Origin: a virus
Length of the DNA stretch: 25,092 nt
Reading direction: 5' to 3' (one strand)
IMG/VR virus record: IMGVR_UViG_3300021389_000144
Coordinates: 1-25,092 of that record
Part shown: piece after piece, positions 232 to 22,084 of the stretch
How the letters are laid out: each line of letters opens with the position of its first letter
How positions within the stretch are numbered: the first letter of the stretch is position 1
Notes under the pieces: model-generated
What the model was told of the DNA's origin: nothing
Databases searched by the model: none
The model's input: the letters and a program-made list of their open reading frames with translations, nothing else
Made by a program: the position numbers and the translations under genes

Positions 232-2925
232 ATGACCAGAGCAAGAGACTTAGCAGATAGCGCAGATAAAGACATTGCGGGTACACTTACTCTGGATGGC
301 CTTACAGTAGCGGGTAACGTCAGTGCTGATGGCGGCACGATCAAGCTGGATGGGAATTATCCTACTGGTACAGGCAACGTGGCGTTGGGTAATACTGCGT
401 TGGATAGTGTTGAGGCTGGTGGTACTTACAACGTAGCTGTTGGAGATGCTGCTGGTACGGCAATAACAACGGGCGATAACAATGTAGCAGTTGGCGCAGA
501 TGCACTTTTACTTAACAGTTCAGGCGGCAGTAACACTGCATTGGGGACGAGTTCGGTAAGAAGCAACACAACAGGCGCAAATAATGTTGGGTTAGGGCAA
601 GCCGCTCTCTACTCCAACACCACCGCCAGCAACAACACTGCTGTGGGGTATCAGGCTGCATACACAAACAGTACTGGGTCTGCCCTTGTTGCAGTTGGTC
701 GTAAAGCCTTATATTCAAATACTGGGTCAGGACATACGGCTATTGGTTATAATGCGTTAACGCTAAATACAACAGGCACAAACAACGTTGCTGTAGGACA
801 AGACGCACTACAGCAAAACACCACCGCAAATAACAACACGGCGGTTGGATATCAGGCGGGTTATAGTAATACTACGGGAACAGGTAACTTGTTTTCGGGA
901 TACAGTGCAGGTAGAAATACGACCACTGGTAATTCTAATACTTATGTAGGTAAAGATGCAGGTCGTTTAGCTACTAATGCAGGTGACAACGTATTCGTTG
1001 GTACAGATGCAGGTTATTCTAACACAGCAAACGATAACACAGGCGTAGGTCAGGCGGCACTGAAAGCCAACAATTCTGGTCGTTACAACACAGCTATAGG
1101 TCGTCAAGCCTTACGCCTTAACACCACCGCAAGCAACAACACGGCTGTTGGTTATCAAGCGGGTTATAGTAATACTACTGGTGATGCCTTAACTGCGCTT
1201 GGTCAAGGTGCTTTGTTAAGCAATACTACAGGCGATCAAAATACTGCACTTGGGAAAGATGCCCTTGGCTTAAACACGACAGGCCGCCAGAACACTGCGG
1301 TTGGTATGCAGGCATTGGATGACAGTACGTCAGGTAACTATAACACTGCATTGGGTCATGGGTCTTTACGCCTCAACACCACCGCCAGCAGCAACACGGC
1401 TGTTGGGTATCAATCACTCTATAGCAATGTAACACACACAACGCTAACTGCTGTTGGTTATAAAGCATTGTACAGCAATACCGCAGATGACAATACTGCT
1501 GTTGGTTGGCAAGCCATGACCTCCAATACCACAGGCGGTTTAAGCGTTGCAGTTGGGCGAAGCGCATTAGAAGATAACACTACAGGCAGTTCTAATACCG
1601 CAATGGGTTATGCCCCTTTATCTAATAATAGTACGGGTAGTAACAATGTAGCCATTGGGCGTCAGGCACTCCTCAACAACACCACCGCCAGTAACAACAC
1701 TGCGGTTGGGTATAAAGCGGCTTATAGTAATACTACAGGCTACGAGAATGTAGCTTTGGGGTTAGAGTCACTTTTGACAAACTCAACAGGTATTAGAAAC
1801 ACAGCTACAGGCCGTGACTCATTACGTCTTAATACTACTGGTAGTTATAATGTTGCAAATGGCATGGAAGCCTTACGTTCCAACACCACCGCCAGCAACA
1901 ACACGGCAGTTGGGTATCAAGCTGGGTATAGTTCACTTACTGGCAATTGGAATAACTATTTAGGAAGAGGCGCAGGTTATAGTAACACTGCTGGCATTCA
2001 CAATAGTGCGTTTGGAGAAGCTGCTTTATACAGCAACACAGGTTCTTATAACACTGCTTATGGCTCATCTGCCCTCTACAACAACACCACCGCATCCAAC
2101 AATACGGCAGTTGGGTATCAGGCGGGGTATAGTAATACCACGTCGCCTTATAACACGTTTATCGGGGGTTTGGCTGGGCAAAGCACAACAGGTAGTCGCA
2201 ATACTTTTGTTGGGTATAACTCTGGGCTTACTGTAACTTCTGGACAAAGAAATACCATCTTAGGCCGTTTTAGCGGCAACCAAGACGGCTTGGACATCCG
2301 CACTTCAAGCAACAACATCGTGCTGTCGGATGGGGATGGTAATCCTAGAGGTTATTATCATGGTGGTTTAACTTCGCCTTTATGGGTGTTTGTCGGGCCT
2401 ACTGTTAATCAAAATTCACTTCAGTTTCACAGTACAGCTTCAACAAATCCATTTGGGCCAGCAATACAGTTCAAAAATGCATCGCCTAATAACACAAGTG
2501 TTTATGCTTTAAACTTTAGTGACAGTACAACAAATAGATTTAGGGTCTGGTCTAATGGTAATGTTGTAAATACTAACAACAGCTATGGTGCTATTTCTGA
2601 CGAAAAGCTAAAAGAAAACATTGTTGATGCTGCATCACAGTGGAACGATATTAAAGCTTTGACTGTTCGCAAGTATAGCATGAAAGCCGACAACCTTGAT
2701 GCCCCCAACATGCTTGGTGTTATTGCTCAAGAGGTTGAAGCGGCTGGCATGGGCGGTCTTGTGTTTGAAAGCCCAGATAGAGATGATGACCTAAATGATC
2801 TTGGAACAGTCACTAAGCAAGTCAACTACTCCATCCTCTACATGAAAGCAGTAAAGGCACTGCAAGAGGCAATGGATCGCATTGAAACCCTAGAGGCAAA
2901 AGTAACTGCCCTAGAAAACGCATAA
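232..2925 (+). CDS. Tail fibre/spike with YadA-like repeats and C-terminal S74 self-cleaving chaperone domain
   Basis: This 897-residue protein is probably a trimeric receptor-binding fibre. The N-terminus (about 1-40, RARDLADSADKDIAG) is a likely virion attachment segment. Residues about 42-684 are a long run of units of about 17 residues with the pattern N-T-x-G-x-x-N-T-A-V-G-x-x-A-L, like the beta-roll head repeats of YadA-type adhesins. A spacer follows. The C-terminus (about 786-897) is a peptidase S74 intramolecular chaperone: the motif SDEKLKEN carries Ser789 and Lys794, the Ser-Lys spacing of the known dyad, followed by GVIAQEVE and a terminal coiled coil. In this family the domain helps the trimer fold and then cuts itself off just before the Ser, which here would release about 109 residues. 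The repeat codons are richer in C (AAC, ACC, GGC) than the genes downstream, suggesting mosaic origin. Fibre assignment is strong; the receptor is unknown. Confidence 0.85.
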   Translation: MTRARDLADSADKDIAGTLTLDGLTVAGNVSADGGTIKLDGNYPTGTGNVALGNTALDSVEAGGTYNVAVGDAAGTAITTGDNNVAVGADALLLNSSGGSNTALGTSSVRSNTTGANNVGLGQAALYSNTTASNNTAVGYQAAYTNSTGSALVAVGRKALYSNTGSGHTAIGYNALTLNTTGTNNVAVGQDALQQNTTANNNTAVGYQAGYSNTTGTGNLFSGYSAGRNTTTGNSNTYVGKDAGRLATNAGDNVFVGTDAGYSNTANDNTGVGQAALKANNSGRYNTAIGRQALRLNTTASNNTAVGYQAGYSNTTGDALTALGQGALLSNTTGDQNTALGKDALGLNTTGRQNTAVGMQALDDSTSGNYNTALGHGSLRLNTTASSNTAVGYQSLYSNVTHTTLTAVGYKALYSNTADDNTAVGWQAMTSNTTGGLSVAVGRSALEDNTTGSSNTAMGYAPLSNNSTGSNNVAIGRQALLNNTTASNNTAVGYKAAYSNTTGYENVALGLESLLTNSTGIRNTATGRDSLRLNTTGSYNVANGMEALRSNTTASNNTAVGYQAGYSSLTGNWNNYLGRGAGYSNTAGIHNSAFGEAALYSNTGSYNTAYGSSALYNNTTASNNTAVGYQAGYSNTTSPYNTFIGGLAGQSTTGSRNTFVGYNSGLTVTSGQRNTILGRFSGNQDGLDIRTSSNNIVLSDGDGNPRGYYHGGLTSPLWVFVGPTVNQNSLQFHSTASTNPFGPAIQFKNASPNNTSVYALNFSDSTTNRFRVWSNGNVVNTNNSYGAISDEKLKENIVDAASQWNDIKALTVRKYSMKADNLDAPNMLGVIAQEVEAAGMGGLVFESPDRDDDLNDLGTVTKQVNYSILYMKAVKALQEAMDRIETLEAKVTALENA
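355..2283 (+). repeat. Tandem array of about 51-bp (17-codon) degenerate repeats inside the fibre gene
   Basis: The coding sequence is a head-to-tail series of 16-18-codon units. A nearly identical C-rich unit encoding NTTASNNTAVGYQ or a close variant recurs seven times, with its AAC-ACC-ACC-GC core starting at 616, 817, 1120, 1375, 1678, 1882 and 2083. The spacings are 201, 303, 255, 303, 204 and 201 bases, that is 4 to 6 units. Units between these copies are more diverged and more AT-rich. Confidence 0.85.
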
Positions 2926-2930
2926 GGAGA
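2924..2930 (+). promoter_or_regulatory. Strong Shine-Dalgarno site for the gene at 2936
   Basis: AAGGAGA overlaps the TAA stop of the fibre gene (2923-2925) and ends 5 bases before the ATG at 2936. This is one of the best ribosome-binding sites in the plus-strand module and fixes the start of the next gene. Confidence 0.7.
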
Positions 2931-2935
2931 AAGAC

Positions 2936-3157
2936 ATGACTGATACACCAACTGCGGAAGAAATCGCACAACACTACACAGCAATGGGTCACTCTGTTGA
3001 TCTATTAAACGCTGGCAAACCAGAGGACATGGAAGATGCCGATTGGGCTGACACTGTGTCACGCAACGTAGAGCATCTACAGTTGATGGTTGCTAAGGAC
3101 TTCTGGACTACAGAAGATATGACCGCTGCTAATGCAGCTATTGCAGCTAACACTTAA
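2936..3157 (+). CDS. Small acidic phage protein, function unknown
   Basis: This is a 73-residue, soluble, acidic and mostly helical protein starting MTDTPTAEEIAQHYTAMGHS. It has no cysteine or membrane segment. The start is supported by an AAGGAGA site that overlaps the stop of the fibre gene. I do not recognise a family with certainty. Its position directly behind an S74 fibre, with the gene for a beta-repeat protein 10 bases downstream, suggests a fibre-associated or assembly role, but nothing in the sequence proves this. Confidence 0.6.
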   Translation: MTDTPTAEEIAQHYTAMGHSVDLLNAGKPEDMEDADWADTVSRNVEHLQLMVAKDFWTTEDMTAANAAIAANT

Positions 3158-3167
3158 AAGGTAACAC

Positions 3168-3842
3168 ATGTTCGGTACAGCATTTGCTTCTACACCCTTT
3201 GCGTCACAGTCAGAGATACGCTTTCTGATTGACGGTGTAAGTGCGATTGGTGCTACCAGCACTGTTACCGTTACTGCTGCATCAGATGTACCAGTCACAA
3301 CACCTACCTTAACATCTAGTGTAGGATCTGTTGTAGTTGTAGCAGAGGCTAATACAGCCATTACAGGCGTATCCGCTACAGCATCTACTAACACGGTAGG
3401 TATAGTAGCAGAAGCTAATGTTGTACCAACGGGGGTTGACTCTACAGGCGTTATAGGTACAACTGTAGTGGTTGGGGATGCTAACTTATCTATTAGTAGC
3501 CCAGCGCTTACAGTAGGTATAGGTGTAGTTAATGCTACTGCTGCAGCTAATGTTGTACCTACTGGTGTAGTCCTTACAGGGGCTATAGGGACTTTAACTA
3601 CACGAACCAGTAACGTTATACTTATATCCACACCAGCTTTAACTGTTAATACTAACAGTGTTACTGTTGTAGCTACTAACTTTGACTATGACTCTTTAAA
3701 AGATAGTTATGATCGTAAGAGAGTTTTATTTATAGTAGGTACACCTCAGACATACACAGTGGCTATACCATCAGATAAGAAGCAAAGAACTGTTAGCATT
3801 GCAGCTATTGACAGAGACAACACAATAAGAATTGCAGCGTAA
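3168..3842 (+). CDS. Beta-repeat virion protein with seven 22-residue tandem repeats
   Basis: This 224-residue protein is rich in Val, Thr, Ala and Gly. Residues 17-170 are seven consecutive units of exactly 22 residues with no insertions; typical stretches are ANVVPTGVDSTGVIGT and ANVVPTGVVLTGAIGT, followed by a run of alternating hydrophobic and polar residues. The pattern predicts a regular beta structure, as in phage fibres or decoration proteins. The C-terminal 54 residues (DSLKDSYDRKRVLFIVGT onward) are different and charged, and may be a capping or docking domain. It sits between a fibre gene and the tail adaptor gene, 10 bases after the previous stop. Function is inferred as structural only; no enzyme motif is present. 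Confidence 0.6.
   Translation: MFGTAFASTPFASQSEIRFLIDGVSAIGATSTVTVTAASDVPVTTPTLTSSVGSVVVVAEANTAITGVSATASTNTVGIVAEANVVPTGVDSTGVIGTTVVVGDANLSISSPALTVGIGVVNATAAANVVPTGVVLTGAIGTLTTRTSNVILISTPALTVNTNSVTVVATNFDYDSLKDSYDRKRVLFIVGTPQTYTVAIPSDKKQRTVSIAAIDRDNTIRIAA
3216..3677 (+). repeat. Seven in-frame 66-bp repeats
   Basis: These encode residues 17-38, 39-60, 61-82, 83-104, 105-126, 127-148 and 149-170 of the protein at 3168-3842. The Gly-Val or Thr-Pro/Pro-Ala positions fall at the same offset in each unit. The third and later units mostly begin Ala-Asn or Asn. DNA identity is low to moderate, so the repeat is old or is kept by selection on the protein. Confidence 0.8.
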
Positions 3843-3853
3843 GGAATACGTAC

Positions 3854-4171
3854 ATGTCATACAAGTGGCCTGATAAAGATAAAGATGAAATACTAGACTA
3901 CAACATAGATTGGTCACGTTTTCTAGGTGATGACACTATTGTAGGTGTGTCTTGGTATGTAGATGACGCTGATGGTGTAAAGACTGCTGTTAGTCCTGCC
4001 TCTGTAGTCAACGGCCTACAGATGGTACAACAGACTAATACTGCAAGTGTTTCTACTATTAGGTTCTCACTTGGTACGAATAACATTAGGTATCGTATCT
4101 CTTGTAAGATTACAACTACAGAAGGTCTGCAGTATGAGCGCTCTGTATTTCTACGTGTTAAGGAGAAGTAA
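3854..4171 (+). CDS. Small beta-rich phage structural protein
   Basis: This is a 105-residue soluble protein beginning MSYKWPDKDKDEILDYNIDW. After an acidic N-terminus it shows alternating strands: the VGVSWYV segment, the RFSLGTNNIRYRISCKI segment and a final SVFLRVKEK strand. The pattern resembles an Ig-like or small beta-sandwich fold, with the Tyr-x-(Ile/Leu)-x-Cys type motif seen in such domains. It lies 11 bases after the beta-repeat protein and 2 bases before the tail adaptor gene, so a small structural or tail-assembly role is likely. The family name is not known to me. Confidence 0.6.
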   Translation: MSYKWPDKDKDEILDYNIDWSRFLGDDTIVGVSWYVDDADGVKTAVSPASVVNGLQMVQQTNTASVSTIRFSLGTNNIRYRISCKITTTEGLQYERSVFLRVKEK

Positions 4172-4173
4172 GA

Positions 4174-4863
4174 ATGTCTTATAACTTTATAGGCTTGGTT
4201 AATGACGTTAATAGACGCTTAAACGAGGTTGAGCTTACTTCATCTAACTTTGCTACAGCTACAGGTTATTACAACCTTAGTAAAGACTCAGTTAATGCAT
4301 CTATTCGGCACATACATCAAGAAGAGTTTGAGTGGCCTTGGAACCATGCAGAAGAGAGTGAGGTACTTTTACCAGGTGAAGTACGCTACAGTATGCCTTA
4401 TGATGCTAAGACTGTTAATATGAACTCCTTTCGTATTCGTAGAGATGCAAGTCTAAGTGTAGAAACTCAACGATTAAAGTTACTTAACTACGAAGAATAC
4501 CTTGACAAATACATAGATTACGAGTATAACTCTGATGTTAATACTAGAGGAGTTCCTAAGTATGTTGTACGAACACCTAGTAGAGAGTTAATCTTTGTAC
4601 CAGCACCTGATAAAGCCTATGAGGTTGTGTATGAGTACTACACTGTTGGTGTTGATATGAGCCTAGCTACAGACGTACCTTCTGTTCCAGAAGAATATAA
4701 ACACGCTATTGTAGATGGTGCAATGTATTATGTTTACTTGTTTAGAGGTGATACTCAGACAGCACAGTTATCCCAACAAAAGTTCTTACAAGGCATTAAA
4801 CATATGCGTAGTTTGAATATCAATAGAACTGAATATATTAGAGATACGAGAGTACACTTTTAA
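4174..4863 (+). CDS. Tail tubular protein A-like head-tail adaptor (T7 gp11-like)
   Basis: This 229-residue protein resembles the adaptor that joins the portal to the nozzle in T7-like and P22-like phages; T7 gp11 is slightly shorter. Visible hallmarks are an N-terminal helix with VNDVNRRLNE, a region with EEFEWPWNHAEE followed by beta strands (VLLPGEVRYSMP), the segment PSRELIFVPAPD and the C-terminal helical stretch with VPEEYKHAIVDGAMYYVY and later FLQGIKHMRSL. The stop overlaps the ATG of the nozzle gene by one base (TAATG), which fits the conserved adaptor-nozzle gene pair. The call rests on overall pattern and gene order rather than on a catalytic motif. Confidence 0.7.
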   Translation: MSYNFIGLVNDVNRRLNEVELTSSNFATATGYYNLSKDSVNASIRHIHQEEFEWPWNHAEESEVLLPGEVRYSMPYDAKTVNMNSFRIRRDASLSVETQRLKLLNYEEYLDKYIDYEYNSDVNTRGVPKYVVRTPSRELIFVPAPDKAYEVVYEYYTVGVDMSLATDVPSVPEEYKHAIVDGAMYYVYLFRGDTQTAQLSQQKFLQGIKHMRSLNINRTEYIRDTRVHF

Positions 4864-6419: not shown

Positions 6420-8186
6420 ATGGCAGGTTATACTAGACAGGATACTGCAAACAACATTGCCAATGGTAACGTTATTGATGCAGATGACTTTGATGCAGAA
6501 TACAATGCAGTAGAGAATGCTTTTAATGCTTCCACAGGACATAAGCATGATGGTACTTTAGGTGAGGGTGCACCTATTGAAAAGGTTGGCCCTAATCAGG
6601 AACTAGTTGTATCTTCTACTAATGTTAATCCTAAGACTAGTAATACTTTAGACTTAGGTACTAACTTACTGCAGTATAAAGATGGTTACTTTGATGGTAC
6701 TGTTTATCAGGATTCATCTGTTGTAGGTGTTAATGCTTACATGACACTCTCTGATAATGAGATTGATGTATCTACTGGGGGCCTTACCTTAGATGCAGCA
6801 GGTGATATTACACTTGATGCTGACGGTGGAGATATACTACTTAAAGATGCAGGTACTACCTTTGGTACTTTTACTAACGATGGTAACAACCTCATTGTAA
6901 AGTCTGGCTCTACTACAGCAGTTACTTTAAGTGGTGCAGACGCTACACTATCTGGTACTTTAGCAGTAACAGGTACTACTACTCTTAATGGTGCTGTTAC
7001 TGTATCTGGGTCAAACAATGTTACCGTAAACTCTGGTGATGTAACTTTATCTAGTGGTAATCTTGTTGTTGGTGGTACTATTACTTCTACAGGTGCTATT
7101 ACAGCTAATGGTGGTGTTACTGGCAATCTTACTGGAAATGTTACTGGAACTGTGTCAAGTATAAGTAACCACGACACAGGAGATTTATCAGAAGGCTCTA
7201 ACCTATACCACACTACTGCAAGAGCAAGGGCTGCTATATCTGCAACAGGTAGTCTAAGTTACAATAGTACAACTGGTGTAATGAGTTTTACACAGGGCGA
7301 CACAGACACAATATCAGAAGGCTCTACTAACCTATACCACACTACCGAAAGAGCAAGAGGTTCTATCTCTGTAACTGATTCAGGTGGTGATGGTAGCTTA
7401 TCTTACAACAGTACTTCTGGTGTTATTACATATACTGGCCCTAGCGCTGCTCAAGTAAGGGCACATTTTAGCGCAGGTTCTGGCATTGGTATCTCTAATG
7501 GTACTATTAGTCACTCTAACACATCTTCTCAGGAATCAGTAAACGGATCTGGTCGTACCTATATCCAAGACATAACCTTAGACACTTATGGACACGTTAC
7601 AGGTTTATCTACTGCTACTGAAACTGTAGTGAACACCAATACAACTTATAGTGCTGGTGGTGGCCTAAGCTTATCAGGTACAACCTTTAGTCACACTGAT
7701 ACATCTAGCCAAGACTCTGTGAACAACAGTAGCGGAACAGTAATTCAAGATGTAACGCTTGATGGCTACGGCCATATAACGGGTTTGTCATCAGTTAATC
7801 TAGATGGTCGTTACTATACTGAAAGTGAATCAGATAGTAGGTTTGCTTACAAGGCAGGTTCTGGTAGCCAAAACTTTAGCGCTGCTAACCTATATGCCAC
7901 AGCATTCTTCTATAGTTCAGATGAACGCCTTAAGGAAAACATTTTACCTGTAACTAACTCTCTTGATGTTATAAATCAACTGCAGGGTGTTTCTTTTGAT
8001 TGGTCTGAAACAGGTAATCACGACATAGGTGTAATTGCTCAAGAGGTTGAGTCTATTATACCAGAGGCTGTTGTAGTTAAAGATGATGGATTCTTATCTG
8101 TTAATGCAACACCTATTATCGCACACCTTATTGAGGCTGTTAAAGAACTTAAAGCAGAGGTAGACCGTTTAAATGACAAGCCGTAG
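6420..8186 (+). CDS. Second tail fibre with S74 self-cleaving chaperone domain
   Basis: This is a 588-residue fibre. The N-terminus (YTRQDTANNIANG, then VIDADDFDAEYNAVENAF and TGHKHDGT) is a typical virion-attachment segment for marine phage fibres. A thin beta-rich shaft follows (about 120-250, many short Gly/Thr/Asn strands). Next are two pairs of internal repeats: SEGSNLYHTTARARAAIS with its copy ISEGSTNLYHTTERARGSIS, and IQDITLDTYGHVTGL with IQDVTLDGYGHITGL. The C-terminus (about 497-588) is a peptidase S74 domain: SDERLKEN gives Ser500 and Lys505, followed by IGVIAQEVE and a coiled coil. Predicted cleavage before Ser500 would leave a mature fibre of about 499 residues. It differs from the fibre at 232-2925 except in the chaperone, so the virion probably carries two fibre types. 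Its end overlaps the next gene by 14 bases. Confidence 0.85.
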   Translation: MAGYTRQDTANNIANGNVIDADDFDAEYNAVENAFNASTGHKHDGTLGEGAPIEKVGPNQELVVSSTNVNPKTSNTLDLGTNLLQYKDGYFDGTVYQDSSVVGVNAYMTLSDNEIDVSTGGLTLDAAGDITLDADGGDILLKDAGTTFGTFTNDGNNLIVKSGSTTAVTLSGADATLSGTLAVTGTTTLNGAVTVSGSNNVTVNSGDVTLSSGNLVVGGTITSTGAITANGGVTGNLTGNVTGTVSSISNHDTGDLSEGSNLYHTTARARAAISATGSLSYNSTTGVMSFTQGDTDTISEGSTNLYHTTERARGSISVTDSGGDGSLSYNSTSGVITYTGPSAAQVRAHFSAGSGIGISNGTISHSNTSSQESVNGSGRTYIQDITLDTYGHVTGLSTATETVVNTNTTYSAGGGLSLSGTTFSHTDTSSQDSVNNSSGTVIQDVTLDGYGHITGLSSVNLDGRYYTESESDSRFAYKAGSGSQNFSAANLYATAFFYSSDERLKENILPVTNSLDVINQLQGVSFDWSETGNHDIGVIAQEVESIIPEAVVVKDDGFLSVNATPIIAHLIEAVKELKAEVDRLNDKP

Positions 8187-8688
8187 ATTAACTACTAACA
8201 CTAAGTTACTAGGTCGTTACGGAAGTGGGGATGACTCCTCTAGACCTGAATATGGTCGGTGGCGTATATTAATTGGATCTGGTTCATCTGACATGTTTAT
8301 ACCAGAGAAGACTTCCGCAGAGAGAGAGGCTGTGTATAACCACTTTCCCTATAAGTATGGTAGTAAGTCTGCCTATGGATTGACCTCACTTACCGCATTA
8401 TTTGATAATACTACTCGTATGGGAACAGGGCCATGTTGGGATAACGGCTTTTCAGGTACTTATAATACACCAGCTAGTTGTCCCTCTGGTTTTACTCAGC
8501 AAGGTAGTGTTACAAATACACCTAACATCAACCCAAATGACTGGAGTGGTGTATCAGGCATACATCAAAATGACCCCGGTTGGCTTTTTTACTTAGAGAA
8601 TGATTATGGTTGTCCCGCTAGTTTCCCAGACGCAGGTATATCAATCAGATACTGTTCAATGACAGCAGACCAAGTAGGATACGTATAA
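8173..8688 (+). CDS. Four-cysteine protein after the fibre gene, possible tail-tip or surface protein
   Basis: This is a 171-residue protein starting inside the end of the fibre gene (14-base overlap) and ending in TAATG with the thioredoxin-like gene. There is no signal peptide or membrane segment. The second half is Gly/Ser/Thr/Pro/aromatic-rich with four cysteines (88, 103, 147, 161) in contexts such as GTGPCWDNGF, ASCPSGFTQQG and DYGCPASFPD. This pattern looks more like a secreted or virion-surface, disulfide-capable domain than a cytoplasmic enzyme. No family is recognised. Placement after the fibre suggests a fibre tip, adhesin or fibre-assembly factor. Two disulfides are possible, but this is inference. 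Confidence 0.6.
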   Translation: MTSRRLTTNTKLLGRYGSGDDSSRPEYGRWRILIGSGSSDMFIPEKTSAEREAVYNHFPYKYGSKSAYGLTSLTALFDNTTRMGTGPCWDNGFSGTYNTPASCPSGFTQQGSVTNTPNINPNDWSGVSGIHQNDPGWLFYLENDYGCPASFPDAGISIRYCSMTADQVGYV

Positions 8689-9062
8689 TGACAATAACAA
8701 CAGTTACACAGCAAGACTTAATTAATAAACGGAGCGAAGAAGACTCTTGGGATTTGGTCGTATTACATCACAGTGAATGTTCAGCATGTGTAGATATGGT
8801 AACTCAATTAGAGGCTATTAAAGACAACTATCCTACAGTTACGTTTTCTAAACTAGATATAACCTCTTCAGATATACCTTTATTTGCACCCCCTGTAATT
8901 CCCTCTATTATAGCGTTACATAATGGTACACGTATCTGGGAAGCGTTAGGTACATTTCCTAATACGACTAAGATTGAGGAAACTATTACAGATTGGCTAA
9001 ATCGTAAGGTTAATTTTGATAGTATCTCAGGTGGCACCTCTATACACGAATTCAGTCAATGA
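8688..9062 (+). CDS. Thioredoxin-like protein with CSAC motif
   Basis: This is a 124-residue protein with a thioredoxin-fold pattern. A first strand DLVVLHHSE leads to the redox motif C31-S-A-C34, then a helix (VDMVTQLEAIKDNYP), a strand (VTFSKLDIT), the cis-proline segment PPVIPSIIALHNG with Pro72, and a C-terminal helix ending in TDWLNRK. A tail of about 20 residues follows that thioredoxins usually lack. Active-site spacing and cis-Pro position support a thiol-disulfide oxidoreductase. It is embedded in virion genes, overlapping by one base the four-cysteine protein gene upstream and by 4 bases the cysteine-rich small gene downstream, far from the ribonucleotide reductase operon that has its own glutaredoxin. 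It may act on virion cysteines or simply be carried here; which is not known. Confidence 0.75.
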   Translation: MTITTVTQQDLINKRSEEDSWDLVVLHHSECSACVDMVTQLEAIKDNYPTVTFSKLDITSSDIPLFAPPVIPSIIALHNGTRIWEALGTFPNTTKIEETITDWLNRKVNFDSISGGTSIHEFSQ

Positions 9063-9229
9063 TGTTCTTAGATTCTGGAGACAACTATAAAAAGAAATTA
9101 GACATCTGTAAAAGCTGTGAAAGTTACAATACTGCCACTACTGCGTGTAAAGAGTGTGGATGTTTAATGTTGTTTAAGGCTAGACTGTCTGGAAATAATT
9201 GCCCTTTAAATAAGCATAGTGTAGATTAA
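9059..9229 (+). CDS. Small zinc-ribbon-like cysteine-rich protein
   Basis: A 56-codon frame starts at ATG-ATG (9059 or 9062), overlapping the stop of the thioredoxin-like gene, and ends at TAA 9227-9229, two bases before the next start. The product contains CKSC (Cys17, Cys20), then CKECGC (Cys30, Cys33, Cys35) and a final NNCPLNKHSVD (Cys48). Two CxxC pairs in so short a protein suggest a zinc ribbon; the CKECGC...CPL arrangement resembles small phage proteins of unknown function. The tight overlap on both sides and the conserved-looking cysteines argue that it is a real gene despite its size. Confidence 0.65.
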   Translation: MMFLDSGDNYKKKLDICKSCESYNTATTACKECGCLMLFKARLSGNNCPLNKHSVD

Positions 9230-9231
9230 AC

Positions 9232-9480
9232 ATGGATACTCTGACAACAGAAAAACTAGAAGCTATGCTAGACAGAGCCGCTAAGAAGGGTGCTAAGCAA
9301 GCCCTGTGTGACTTAGGTTTGTCAGACTTAGATGCAGCTAATGATATTAAAGAGTTACGTGGTTTGTTAGACTCATGGCGTGATACTAAAAAGAGTATAT
9401 GGAAGACACTCGTACAATTAGGAACAGTTGCAGTACTGACATTCATAGCTACTGCTGTATGGATGCAAGTAGGCAAATAA
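9232..9480 (+). CDS. Single-span membrane protein (DUF6127-like), possible holin or lysis accessory
   Basis: This is an 82-residue protein. The first 55 residues are charged and helical (LEAMLDRAAKKGAKQALCDL, then DAANDIKELRGLLDSWRD), followed by one strongly hydrophobic span at about 57-79 (LVQLGTVAVLTFIATAVWM). The layout resembles the small DUF6127-like membrane proteins I associate with alphaproteobacterial phages and prophages; that match is from memory. A membrane protein of this size next to internal virion proteins and a lysozyme-domain gene could be a holin or a lysis accessory, but a single C-terminal span with a cytoplasmic N-domain is not diagnostic. It starts 2 bases after the zinc-ribbon gene. 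Confidence 0.65.
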   Translation: MDTLTTEKLEAMLDRAAKKGAKQALCDLGLSDLDAANDIKELRGLLDSWRDTKKSIWKTLVQLGTVAVLTFIATAVWMQVGK

Positions 9481-19958: not shown

Positions 19959-20189
19959 TTATTCTCCTTTCAAGAGAGTTTTGAGTTCTGAGTAACCACC
20001 TATGTGATTACCCTCCCGATCCCAAATTTGTGGAACCGTCTTTATACCAGACTTTTTAAATAAGTCAAGTACCCATTTAGAGTCATTGAGAGAGTAGTAC
20101 TGAACTTCAATACGATTGTCTCTCAATAACCCCATAGCTTTGGAGCAGTGAGGGCAGTCAACCCGCCCCACTAATACATATACACTCAT
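19959..20189 (-). CDS. Glutaredoxin
   Basis: This is a 76-residue glutaredoxin-fold protein: a strand (VYVLVGRVD), active site C12-P-H-C15, a helix (SKAMGLLRDNRI), the strand VQYYSLND, the cis-proline motif TVPQIWDREG and IGGYSELKTLLKG, which matches the GG(Y/F)-E/D-L ending of the family. It would reduce disulfides using glutathione or another donor. Its ATG overlaps the TGA of nrdJ by 4 bases, so it is co-translated with the reductase whose C-terminal cysteine pair it probably re-reduces. The CPHC active site differs from the classic CPYC but is seen in NrdH/Grx-like phage proteins. Confidence 0.85.
   Translation of the reverse strand: MSVYVLVGRVDCPHCSKAMGLLRDNRIEVQYYSLNDSKWVLDLFKKSGIKTVPQIWDREGNHIGGYSELKTLLKGE
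19964..19969 (-). promoter_or_regulatory. Shine-Dalgarno site of the microprotein, inside the glutaredoxin gene end
   Basis: The minus strand reads AAAGGAGAATAACATG: AAGGAG lies 6 bases before the ATG at 19957 and is part of the last codons (Lys-Gly-Glu) of glutaredoxin. It is the main evidence that the 39-codon frame is translated. Confidence 0.7.
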
Positions 20190-22084
20190 GTCAGATCCAC
20201 TATCTCACAAGTATCGCCACTACATGCCATAGTCTGACTACCTGCAGTATTGTCTTCATCTTCGTACTGACTTAGCTCTGACCAGTCAATGTTCTTTGGC
20301 ATAGTTGATAGCAACTCTTCATACTCTTCCTTTGAACAATCCTGGTAGGGGGCTTGCTGATAAGTATGATCTGAGTGTGGCAAGAAAGACACACCTGACA
20401 TCTCATCGAAGTACTTATACACAAACGCACCCACTTCCATCCACTCAGAATCCCGTACTGAGATAGTCACGCTAGGCTTATGCTCACACCAGTGTCTTTG
20501 ATATGTTAGCCAAGTCTCTAGTTGCTCAATGGCAGTCATATCATTACGTGTAACAGCACCCTCTGGTGACTTAACAGGGAAGCTAAACACTGTAGTAGTG
20601 TCACCCTTCATTACACATGGCTCATTAGGAACACCCTTGTCCTTCATAAACTGTGTCAGGGGATCCTTATTATCACCACGCACAGTACGGACATAATAGG
20701 GACTATGGCGAGCATGTATCCCAGAGGCTGAATCCACCAACTGACTGACTGTGCCCGATGGTTTGACGCAGCTAATCGCAGTGCTATGAGGTATACCAAG
20801 GCGGTCAGCCCATTCAGCATTAGTAGTAACAGCCACATTTCTAAGGTGCTCAAGAGTTTTCTCCAGTCCAGCATTTGCTGATGTCATAAGAGGGTTGTCC
20901 ATTATTCCCGTAAGTGACACACCAAGCAAGCGCTCTTCTTCTGTGTTGTTCGCCCACACCTTCCGCAGGTAGGGAAACTTTGTGTAGGATGATTGAATGG
21001 TTCCCAGAATCGTAGCCAAGCGAACCTTTCTTTCAAGATCGTCGATAGTATCTGTAGCACGTACAACACACTCCGTTAAGTTACAGAACTGATATGGGCG
21101 TAAGATAATCTCACTACAGGGGTTAGTACCAAAATCATAGTTAGGATCTCTACGGTCATACTTAGCTGCTTGCTTCTTAGAAGCCTCACGATTAAAGATA
21201 CCACGCTCACCAGACTTAGACTCAACCAGTGCTGTCCACTCACGCATAAACGTTTCCATGTCAGGCTTCTCTGTGTAGCTGACACTGTTATTAGCTAAGG
21301 CTCTCCATGATGCAGTCTCCCACCATTGTCCTGACTTAGCGTGACGCATACGATCATCACTCAGGTTAGACAAACTAATCATAGCACTACGGCGTACACC
21401 ACCAACTACGACAATCTGACCAATAAAGCACATCAAGTCGTGACACTCAACGCTAGACAGCTTACGCCCTTGTGCATTCTTGAAGGTTGTAATAGCAAAG
21501 TTAAAGAGTTCCACTAGAGGCGCTGGGCCACTAGCTCTACCACCAAACGTCTTAAGCCTAGCACCTGCAGGACGTACACGAGACACATCCCACTTAGGGA
21601 TCTCACCAGCCCAGAGGAGAGCAAGAACTTGACGGAACGCCTTAGCCCAACCTTCCTTACTGTCTTTGACAACGACAACAGTATCACTGTAGAACAACTC
21701 AGGTACTTCCGGGAGATTACTAACGTACTGCCTCTCGACGCTGAAACCGACACCAGTACCACACAAGAGGATGTACATAGCCTCATCGAAGGACTTAGGG
21801 TCATCTACGGGTAAGTAGCTACAGTTATACCCAGCAGTGTTGTCTCTGTCAAGTGCTGGTCCTGCAGTCATCATGGCTCGCATAGAGGGCATTACCTCTA
21901 GGTTCATGATGGCTTCACCAATAGCTTTAACGTAGCTGTCCTTACCAGCCTTTGGGTGTACTACATTATCCATGTAGCGCTGTACTGTATCGCCCCAAGT
22001 CTCACGGCCCTTATCGTCATAGTACTTAGCATATCGTGATAGAGCAATGAAGCTCTGGTAGTCTGTTGGTAGATAGTTATTCAT
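20186..22084 (-). CDS. nrdJ: Adenosylcobalamin-dependent (class II, monomeric-type) ribonucleotide reductase
   Basis: This 632-residue enzyme makes deoxyribonucleotides from ribonucleotides using a B12-derived radical. Cysteines match those of the Lactobacillus leichmannii enzyme: Cys88 (YNCSYLP) and Cys334 as the reducing pair, and radical Cys323 in NPCSEI with Asn321 and Glu325. Cys323 and Cys334 are 11 residues apart, as in that enzyme. The C-terminal CX4C pair is Cys621/Cys626 (ACSGDTCE). Other class II signatures are LLCGTGVGFSVE and KPSGTVSQLVDSASGIHARH. It is about 100 residues shorter than the 739-residue reference. No N-terminal ATP cone is evident. It overlaps mazG upstream and glutaredoxin downstream by 4 bases each, forming a nucleotide-metabolism operon. 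Oxygen tolerance and B12 need are family properties: the host must supply cobalamin. Confidence 0.93.
   Translation of the reverse strand: MNNYLPTDYQSFIALSRYAKYYDDKGRETWGDTVQRYMDNVVHPKAGKDSYVKAIGEAIMNLEVMPSMRAMMTAGPALDRDNTAGYNCSYLPVDDPKSFDEAMYILLCGTGVGFSVERQYVSNLPEVPELFYSDTVVVVKDSKEGWAKAFRQVLALLWAGEIPKWDVSRVRPAGARLKTFGGRASGPAPLVELFNFAITTFKNAQGRKLSSVECHDLMCFIGQIVVVGGVRRSAMISLSNLSDDRMRHAKSGQWWETASWRALANNSVSYTEKPDMETFMREWTALVESKSGERGIFNREASKKQAAKYDRRDPNYDFGTNPCSEIILRPYQFCNLTECVVRATDTIDDLERKVRLATILGTIQSSYTKFPYLRKVWANNTEEERLLGVSLTGIMDNPLMTSANAGLEKTLEHLRNVAVTTNAEWADRLGIPHSTAISCVKPSGTVSQLVDSASGIHARHSPYYVRTVRGDNKDPLTQFMKDKGVPNEPCVMKGDTTTVFSFPVKSPEGAVTRNDMTAIEQLETWLTYQRHWCEHKPSVTISVRDSEWMEVGAFVYKYFDEMSGVSFLPHSDHTYQQAPYQDCSKEEYEELLSTMPKNIDWSELSQYEDEDNTAGSQTMACSGDTCEIVDLT

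Follow-up and report, generated by a model that had tools for sequence, protein, structure and literature searches.

A four-cysteine gene and a thioredoxin-like gene follow an S74 tail fibre gene

We examined a cluster of cysteine-encoding genes in a 25,092-base virus record (IMG/VR IMGVR_UViG_3300021389_000144, taken whole and hereafter called the window), whose kin are the Roseobacter phages CRP-207, CRP-345, CRP-603, CRP-1, CRP-2, CRP-9 and CRP-13 and whose group we label podovirus-type, in keeping with the HMO-2011 literature. An earlier note on this DNA had described three overlapping genes, for a four-cysteine protein, a CSAC thioredoxin-like protein and a zinc-ribbon-like protein, and had suggested that the trio could be a device for forming or protecting disulfides in a tail-tip protein. 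All three open reading frames and their overlaps were confirmed on the plus strand. They stand behind a plus-strand gene (6420-8186) for a 588-residue tail fibre whose C-terminus is an S74 intramolecular chaperone; this gene overlaps by 14 nucleotides the gene for the four-cysteine protein of 171 residues (8173-8688), our proposed fibre-tip cap (hereafter the tip protein). This gene meets that of a predicted thioredoxin-fold protein of 124 residues (8688-9062) at a TAATG joint (1 nucleotide), and an ATGA joint (4 nucleotides) then leads into the gene for a zinc-ribbon-like protein of DUF6171 type, 56 residues long with six cysteines (9059-9229). The fibre scored 65 bits against Peptidase_S74 (PF13884; cut-off 22) and carries the SDxxLK site as SDERLK. 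Since a cut before the S-D of DVYIR^SDGRLK is predicted for gp37 of the fPS phages by the authors of PMC7917993, we predict that the window fibre cleaves itself between residues 499 and 500 (7916/7917, ...FFYS^SDERLK).

The tip protein comprises an N-terminal part, the putative docking part, and a C-terminal cysteine domain that begins at about residue 78. Its four cysteines (C88, C103, C147 and C161), whose lack of conservation would by the earlier note's own terms have refuted it, were invariant in 17/17 aligned homologues. This alignment was made without the close copies L002, L003, L004 and L020, the incomplete L028, and L050 and L051, which turned up later; the four cysteines were invariant too in a separate alignment that includes L002, and L050, L051 and the partial L028 have four each as read from their sequences, the cysteines of L003, L004 and L020 being outside the count. 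Across phage groups, identity to the window protein is only 25–41%, and no significant match to the 171-residue protein was found in Pfam, NCBIfam, PHROGs or the PDB.

The product of 8688-9062 is predicted to have a thioredoxin fold. As a single sequence it reached 16.6 bits against Pfam PF00085, under the cut-off of 23.5; the profile of its family matched solved thioredoxins with a best E-value of 1.8e-9, and its structure model (predicted local distance difference test score, pLDDT, of 78.5) matched them as well (3dyr_B, E 3.4e-6, TM-score 0.76 by target length). Both cysteines of the C31-S-A-C34 motif and the cis-proline P72 are invariant in 17/17 thioredoxin rows from 16 contigs, and identity to the window protein across phage groups is only 18–30%. 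With PF00085 the protein thus shares the predicted fold, the CxxC and the cis-proline, but it differs in having no tryptophan before the CxxC, no Gly-Pro inside it, and a distinctive P-[LF]-F-[AG]-P ahead of the cis-proline. The classical hallmarks of E. coli thioredoxin (TrxA), which we take to be the WCGPC motif and the buried aspartate, are absent from 17/17 rows: the tryptophan is missing throughout, and a hydrophobic residue replaces the aspartate, its position being occupied by V, L, I or Y. To judge by these sequences, such a loss is more in keeping with a reductase of specialised function than with a general one.

The tip and thioredoxin genes stay together in about four phage backgrounds

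We then collected the cassette from 24 distinct contigs or genomes, which fall into about four phage backgrounds when grouped by flanking genes and tip sequence, with no genome tree: eight podovirus-type records (the window, L001-L006 and L018), nine records of a second lineage, lineage 2 (L026-L032, L050 and L051), six T4-like contigs (L007 and L019-L023, so labelled for the tail sheath, neck and terminase matches of L021 and L007) and Vibrio phage Va2. The tip gene and the thioredoxin gene were adjacent and in the same order in every record (24/24). An S74-type fibre stood upstream in all that could be tested (22/22; by the SDxxLK motif in 21 and by Pfam in Va2), L007 and L028 being outside this count, as their contigs begin at or inside the tip gene; Pfam confirmed the S74 domain in all seven fibres scanned. 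In CRP-207, the fibre has its N-terminal part in common with the window fibre (66% over aligned stretches within residues 1-350) and ends in a Collar domain with no S74 match; it is followed directly by a DUF6127 gene, and there is no cassette. It is thus the S74 end of the fibre that the cassette accompanies. Other genes occupy the same slot in CRP-603 and CRP-345.

Searches from either gene led to the other. A viral-contig scan with the thioredoxin alignment gave 13 loci, with a homologue of the 171-residue protein directly upstream in 13/13, and a scan with the 171-residue alignment gave 15 loci, with the thioredoxin in 15/15 and a DUF6171-type gene in 14/15. Among 50,697 phage records (E≤0.01), both window queries matched the same single record, that of Va2, which has the two genes side by side downstream of an S74 fibre; no record gave a match to just one of them, at a sensitivity so low that the L019 tip query missed even Va2. 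One copy of each gene (E≤0.01) was present in each of eight records that were searched over their full length; some of these are fragments, and L007 is not among them.

The ratio of nonsynonymous to synonymous substitution rates (dN/dS) lay within 0.08–0.29 for all three genes in the window/L001 pair. Over all pairs measured, it was 0.23–0.29 for the tip gene (three pairs), above the 0.08–0.16 of the thioredoxin gene (four pairs), and 0.09 for the zinc-ribbon gene (one pair). Given the pair in 24/24 records, these ratios in the window/L001 pair and four cysteines invariant in 17/17 homologues, the cassette is not a chance arrangement.

Two loci showed variations on this layout. In the T4-like contig L007, two different thioredoxin copies (502-909 and 1101-1454) lie behind the tip gene with a 59-residue open reading frame between them. 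In L023, two tandem genes (2582-3445 and 3446-4393) carry S74-type SDxxLK motifs, and the tip-thioredoxin pair stands behind the second only.

The cysteine domain and the thioredoxin co-vary in lineage 2

In lineage 2 the tip protein is a mosaic of two blocks. L026 and L027 are 36% identical in the N-terminal part (28/77) and 90% in the C-terminal part (83/92), and L027 and L032 are 90% identical in the N-terminal part (71/79) and 65% in the C-terminal part (60/92). The C-terminal cysteine domain varied closely with the thioredoxin (rho 0.90, 1/5000, with 9 contigs; rho 0.93, 7/720, with 6 contigs), whereas the thioredoxin and the equally close zinc-ribbon gene did not vary together (rho 0.00 with 9 contigs; 0.31, 109/720, with 6 contigs). 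Likewise, rho was 0.03 between the tip C-terminal part and the zinc ribbon (9 contigs) and 0.14 between the two parts of the tip protein. L028 is outside the comparisons that need the N-terminal part. This contrast at the amino-acid level is sharper than silent-site linkage alone, as third codon positions gave 0.66 (11/5000) for the C-terminal part and the thioredoxin and 0.43 (56/5000) for the thioredoxin and the zinc ribbon. The N-terminal part may in turn co-vary with the end of the fibre, since rho with the last 12 fibre residues was 0.77 (60/5000, n = 8).

A putative fibre-tip cap and its proposed dedicated oxidoreductase

The tip and thioredoxin proteins were never found apart (13/13 and 15/15 loci) and none of the four cysteines varies; the part of the earlier note's proposal by which a device acts on the thiols of a tail-tip protein is therefore supported as far as sequence goes. 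Its extension to a trio did not stand, and neither did the expected co-occurrence of all three genes: the zinc-ribbon gene is missing from 7/24 records and occurs without the pair. We lean towards a reading in which the 171-residue protein, like gp38, caps the S74 fibre once it has matured, and a dedicated oxidoreductase of thioredoxin fold has the cysteine domain of this cap as its client. Under this reading, the fibre would trimerise on its S74 domain, which would then cut itself off, and the N-terminal part of the 171-residue protein would dock onto the exposed fibre end. The C-terminal domain would form a variable receptor-binding cap, its four cysteines probably paired in two disulfides. 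In the reducing cytoplasm the thioredoxin would hold these cysteines reduced or mend wrong pairs until the cap is assembled, as a foldase or isomerase specialised for one client, and the cap would be finally oxidised during assembly or after release. What the data show are the synteny, the conserved cysteines, the predicted thioredoxin fold and the mosaic blocks; the position at the fibre tip, the disulfides, the client relation and the direction of electron flow through the thioredoxin are what we infer from them.

The model for the cap comes from T2-like phages and Salmonella phage S16, in which, according to PMC7917993, the intramolecular chaperone of gp37 is cut off, gp38 attaches by its N-terminal domain to the end so exposed, and the C-terminal domain of gp38 sets host specificity. 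Alike in both systems are a self-cleaving chaperone at an SD.RLK site, a small separate tip protein, and in that protein an N-terminal docking part, putative in the cassette, and a variable C-terminal part; a tip gene just downstream of a fibre with a self-cleaving chaperone was found in 22/22 of our loci with upstream sequence. The cassette tip differs from gp38 in its unrelated sequence, its four invariant cysteines and the thioredoxin gene that accompanies it in 24/24 records, and no polyglycine runs or polyglycine-rich receptor domain were seen by eye in the aligned family. As the best E-value of 17 family members against PHROGs was not below 0.15, with no sequence homology to gp38, the tip-cap reading is one by analogy and not by homology. 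A second likeness is to the shared host-recognition modules of the Alteromonas phages A5, V22 and P24 described in PMC10579305, in which a fibre-end block recurs among phages that belong to different families and otherwise have little in common; the helper there chaperones the fibre and is no redox protein, and the words 'thioredoxin', 'cysteine' and 'disulfide' are absent from the main text of that paper. More widely, the fibre helpers treated in the consulted portions of PMC6918029, PMC10579305, PMC7917993 and PMC7289586 are folding chaperones. Among the papers listed by a literature search, in which subscription journals were thinly covered, none described a fibre-linked thioredoxin module as judged by title and abstract opening.

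Several observations weigh against the cap-and-client reading. The L019-L023 group has five cysteines in the tip protein (4/4 aligned members), an odd number. The best structure model of the 171-residue protein reaches only intermediate confidence (pLDDT 74.6, with 49.5–61.8 for the four others), and against PDB folds it gave a best E-value of 1.3, with 0 of 108 chains at Z≥2. Silent sites correlate too (0.66), so that block transfer or linkage explains part of the co-variation, and the correlations were tested post hoc and in large number (21 tests with 6 contigs, 18 with 9 contigs and 18 at third codon positions). As for docking, rho between the N-terminal part and the last 25 fibre residues was 0.19 (119/720, n = 6), and it was after this result that the stretch was cut from 25 to 12 residues and contigs were added. 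Since the S74 domain in between tracks both the N-terminal part (0.46, 55/5000) and the last 12 residues (0.66, 9/5000), the fibre-end link behind the docking proposal is the less secure of the two co-variation results. S74 proteins do not need the cassette, as a weak S74 fibre in CRP-1 (20.5 bits, under the cut-off of 22) lacks it, and so does a second, larger S74 protein of the same module in the window (232-2925; C-terminal, 31.3 bits), behind which no cassette follows. Finally, of eight records searched for a glutaredoxin (PF00462), just two yielded one, those of the window and L001, with no match in Va2 and five others, and it is for these two alone that a separate glutaredoxin can be cited as an argument.

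The sole BFVD match of the 171-residue model below E 1 was A0A873WBG7 (166 residues, 26% identical, E 1.7e-3), which by its length and identity is probably the Va2 homologue itself.

More tentatively, and with the balance of our judgement somewhat against it, several distantly related phage groups may carry a client-specific thiol-disulfide foldase for a receptor-binding tip, exchanged together with its cysteine domain. If so, a disulfide-stabilised adhesin could be built in a reducing cytoplasm, and redox chaperones would form a distinct class of phage assembly factor beside the Tfa/gp38-type and S74-type chaperones. If a thioredoxin did serve a single adhesin, receptor-binding proteins would have another route to maturation, and one would have to ask by what means the host cytoplasm allows disulfides to form or to stay correctly paired. 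The synteny also marks a family of small putative fibre-tip proteins missed by Pfam, NCBIfam and PHROGs, which helps to predict host-recognition genes in uncultured phages.

Other explanations for the pair

Thioredoxin folds can serve as scaffolds, and the thioredoxin could itself be a virion part, a structural or redox-sensing subunit that stays on the cap and comes into play on contact with the cell. Its gene lies inside the virion module and tracks the cysteine domain tightly, as a subunit's might, but its CxxC and cis-proline are invariant in 17/17 rows, which is expected of catalysis and not of scaffolding, and we regard this role as unlikely.

Equally unlikely, in our estimate, is that the four cysteines bind a metal (zinc or an iron-sulphur cluster), with the thioredoxin and the DUF6171-type protein keeping them reduced or loading the metal. 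Four invariant cysteines and a six-cysteine zinc-ribbon-like neighbour in 17/24 records would suit metal binding, as would the five-cysteine L019-L023 group, which is unlike simple disulfide pairing. The spacing of the cysteines (15, 44 and 14) contains no CxxC knuckle, however, and the homologues in Va2 and L007 have six cysteines each, two extra, which is more like disulfides; the zinc-ribbon gene, for its part, is missing from 7/24 records and, in lineage 2, does not vary with the pair.

It is also improbable that the pair is kept only by exchange of whole fibre-end blocks, with the thioredoxin as a passenger in a general redox role. Block exchange is evident and silent sites correlate (rho 0.66), but the equally close zinc-ribbon protein is decoupled, neither gene was alone in the 50,697 records (at the low sensitivity noted above), and each was single-copy in the eight records, some of them fragments, that were searched whole.

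Phage redoxins often serve ribonucleotide reductase, the window phage has a reductase, and with glutaredoxin in only 2/8 records the thioredoxin could be the sole redoxin elsewhere, but service to the reductase or to host take-over is very unlikely and was rejected as the leading reading on account of the window's own glutaredoxin and the lost TrxA hallmarks (absent in 17/17 rows), the thioredoxin moreover always standing beside the fibre-tip gene (24 records). That glutaredoxin (19959-20189, minus strand; CPHC; PF00462, 32.8 bits) adjoins the reductase gene (20186-22084), as the earlier note had said in setting the redox gene apart from a reductase operon with its own glutaredoxin, and the redoxin at 8688 is accordingly not the only one of the window phage.

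The DUF6171-type gene and other neighbours

The 9059-9229 product passed the DUF6171 cut-off (PF19668) narrowly (27.7 versus 27 bits; 28.6 for the L026 copy) and also matched phrog_13558, and six cysteines are invariant in 10/10 members of its alignment. A gene of this type comes next after the thioredoxin gene in 17/24 records and is missing from the locus in 7/24, and relatives occur in cyanophages and Stenotrophomonas phages without a match to the tip-thioredoxin pair; the zinc ribbon was accordingly rejected as an obligate third partner. On its sequence distribution the protein is an optional helper or third part, alike to DUF6171/phrog_13558 in cysteine pattern and different in being optional in the cassette. 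DUF6171 is labelled as of unknown function in Pfam and PHROGs, and no paper using the term turned up in our literature search. In the cyanophage S-SRM01 (L012, 3899-4234) a homologue follows an annotated adhesin tip gene, and the one in S-RIM2 (L044, 4947-5138) adjoins a 2OG-Fe(II) oxygenase gene and has a fibre gene nearby; the homologue in Stenotrophomonas phage IME-SM1, by contrast, has no annotated fibre gene within 5 kb. DUF6171-type proteins are possibly a general fibre-end helper.

Downstream of the cassette, the gene for a DUF6127 protein (9232-9480, plus strand) marks its far edge, because the CRP-207 homologue stands directly behind the fibre gene. The DUF6127 protein is common to Roseobacter, Rhizobium and Acidithiobacillus phages (13 records).

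Two further searches led no further: a genome-contig scan gave six matches, five of them of 21 residues, all in Gemmatimonadota (profile E 0.002–0.006 in 4/6), and a plasmid search gave matches at E 0.3 in two Shewanella plasmids, one of which shows cysteine-rich C.(S/T)GY repeats. In the T4-like carriers, a different protein of about 70-80 residues takes the zinc ribbon's position after the thioredoxin (L019 5281-5487, L022 5249-5461 and L007 1435-1680), with an LLPPD/LAPPD-type motif seen by eye.

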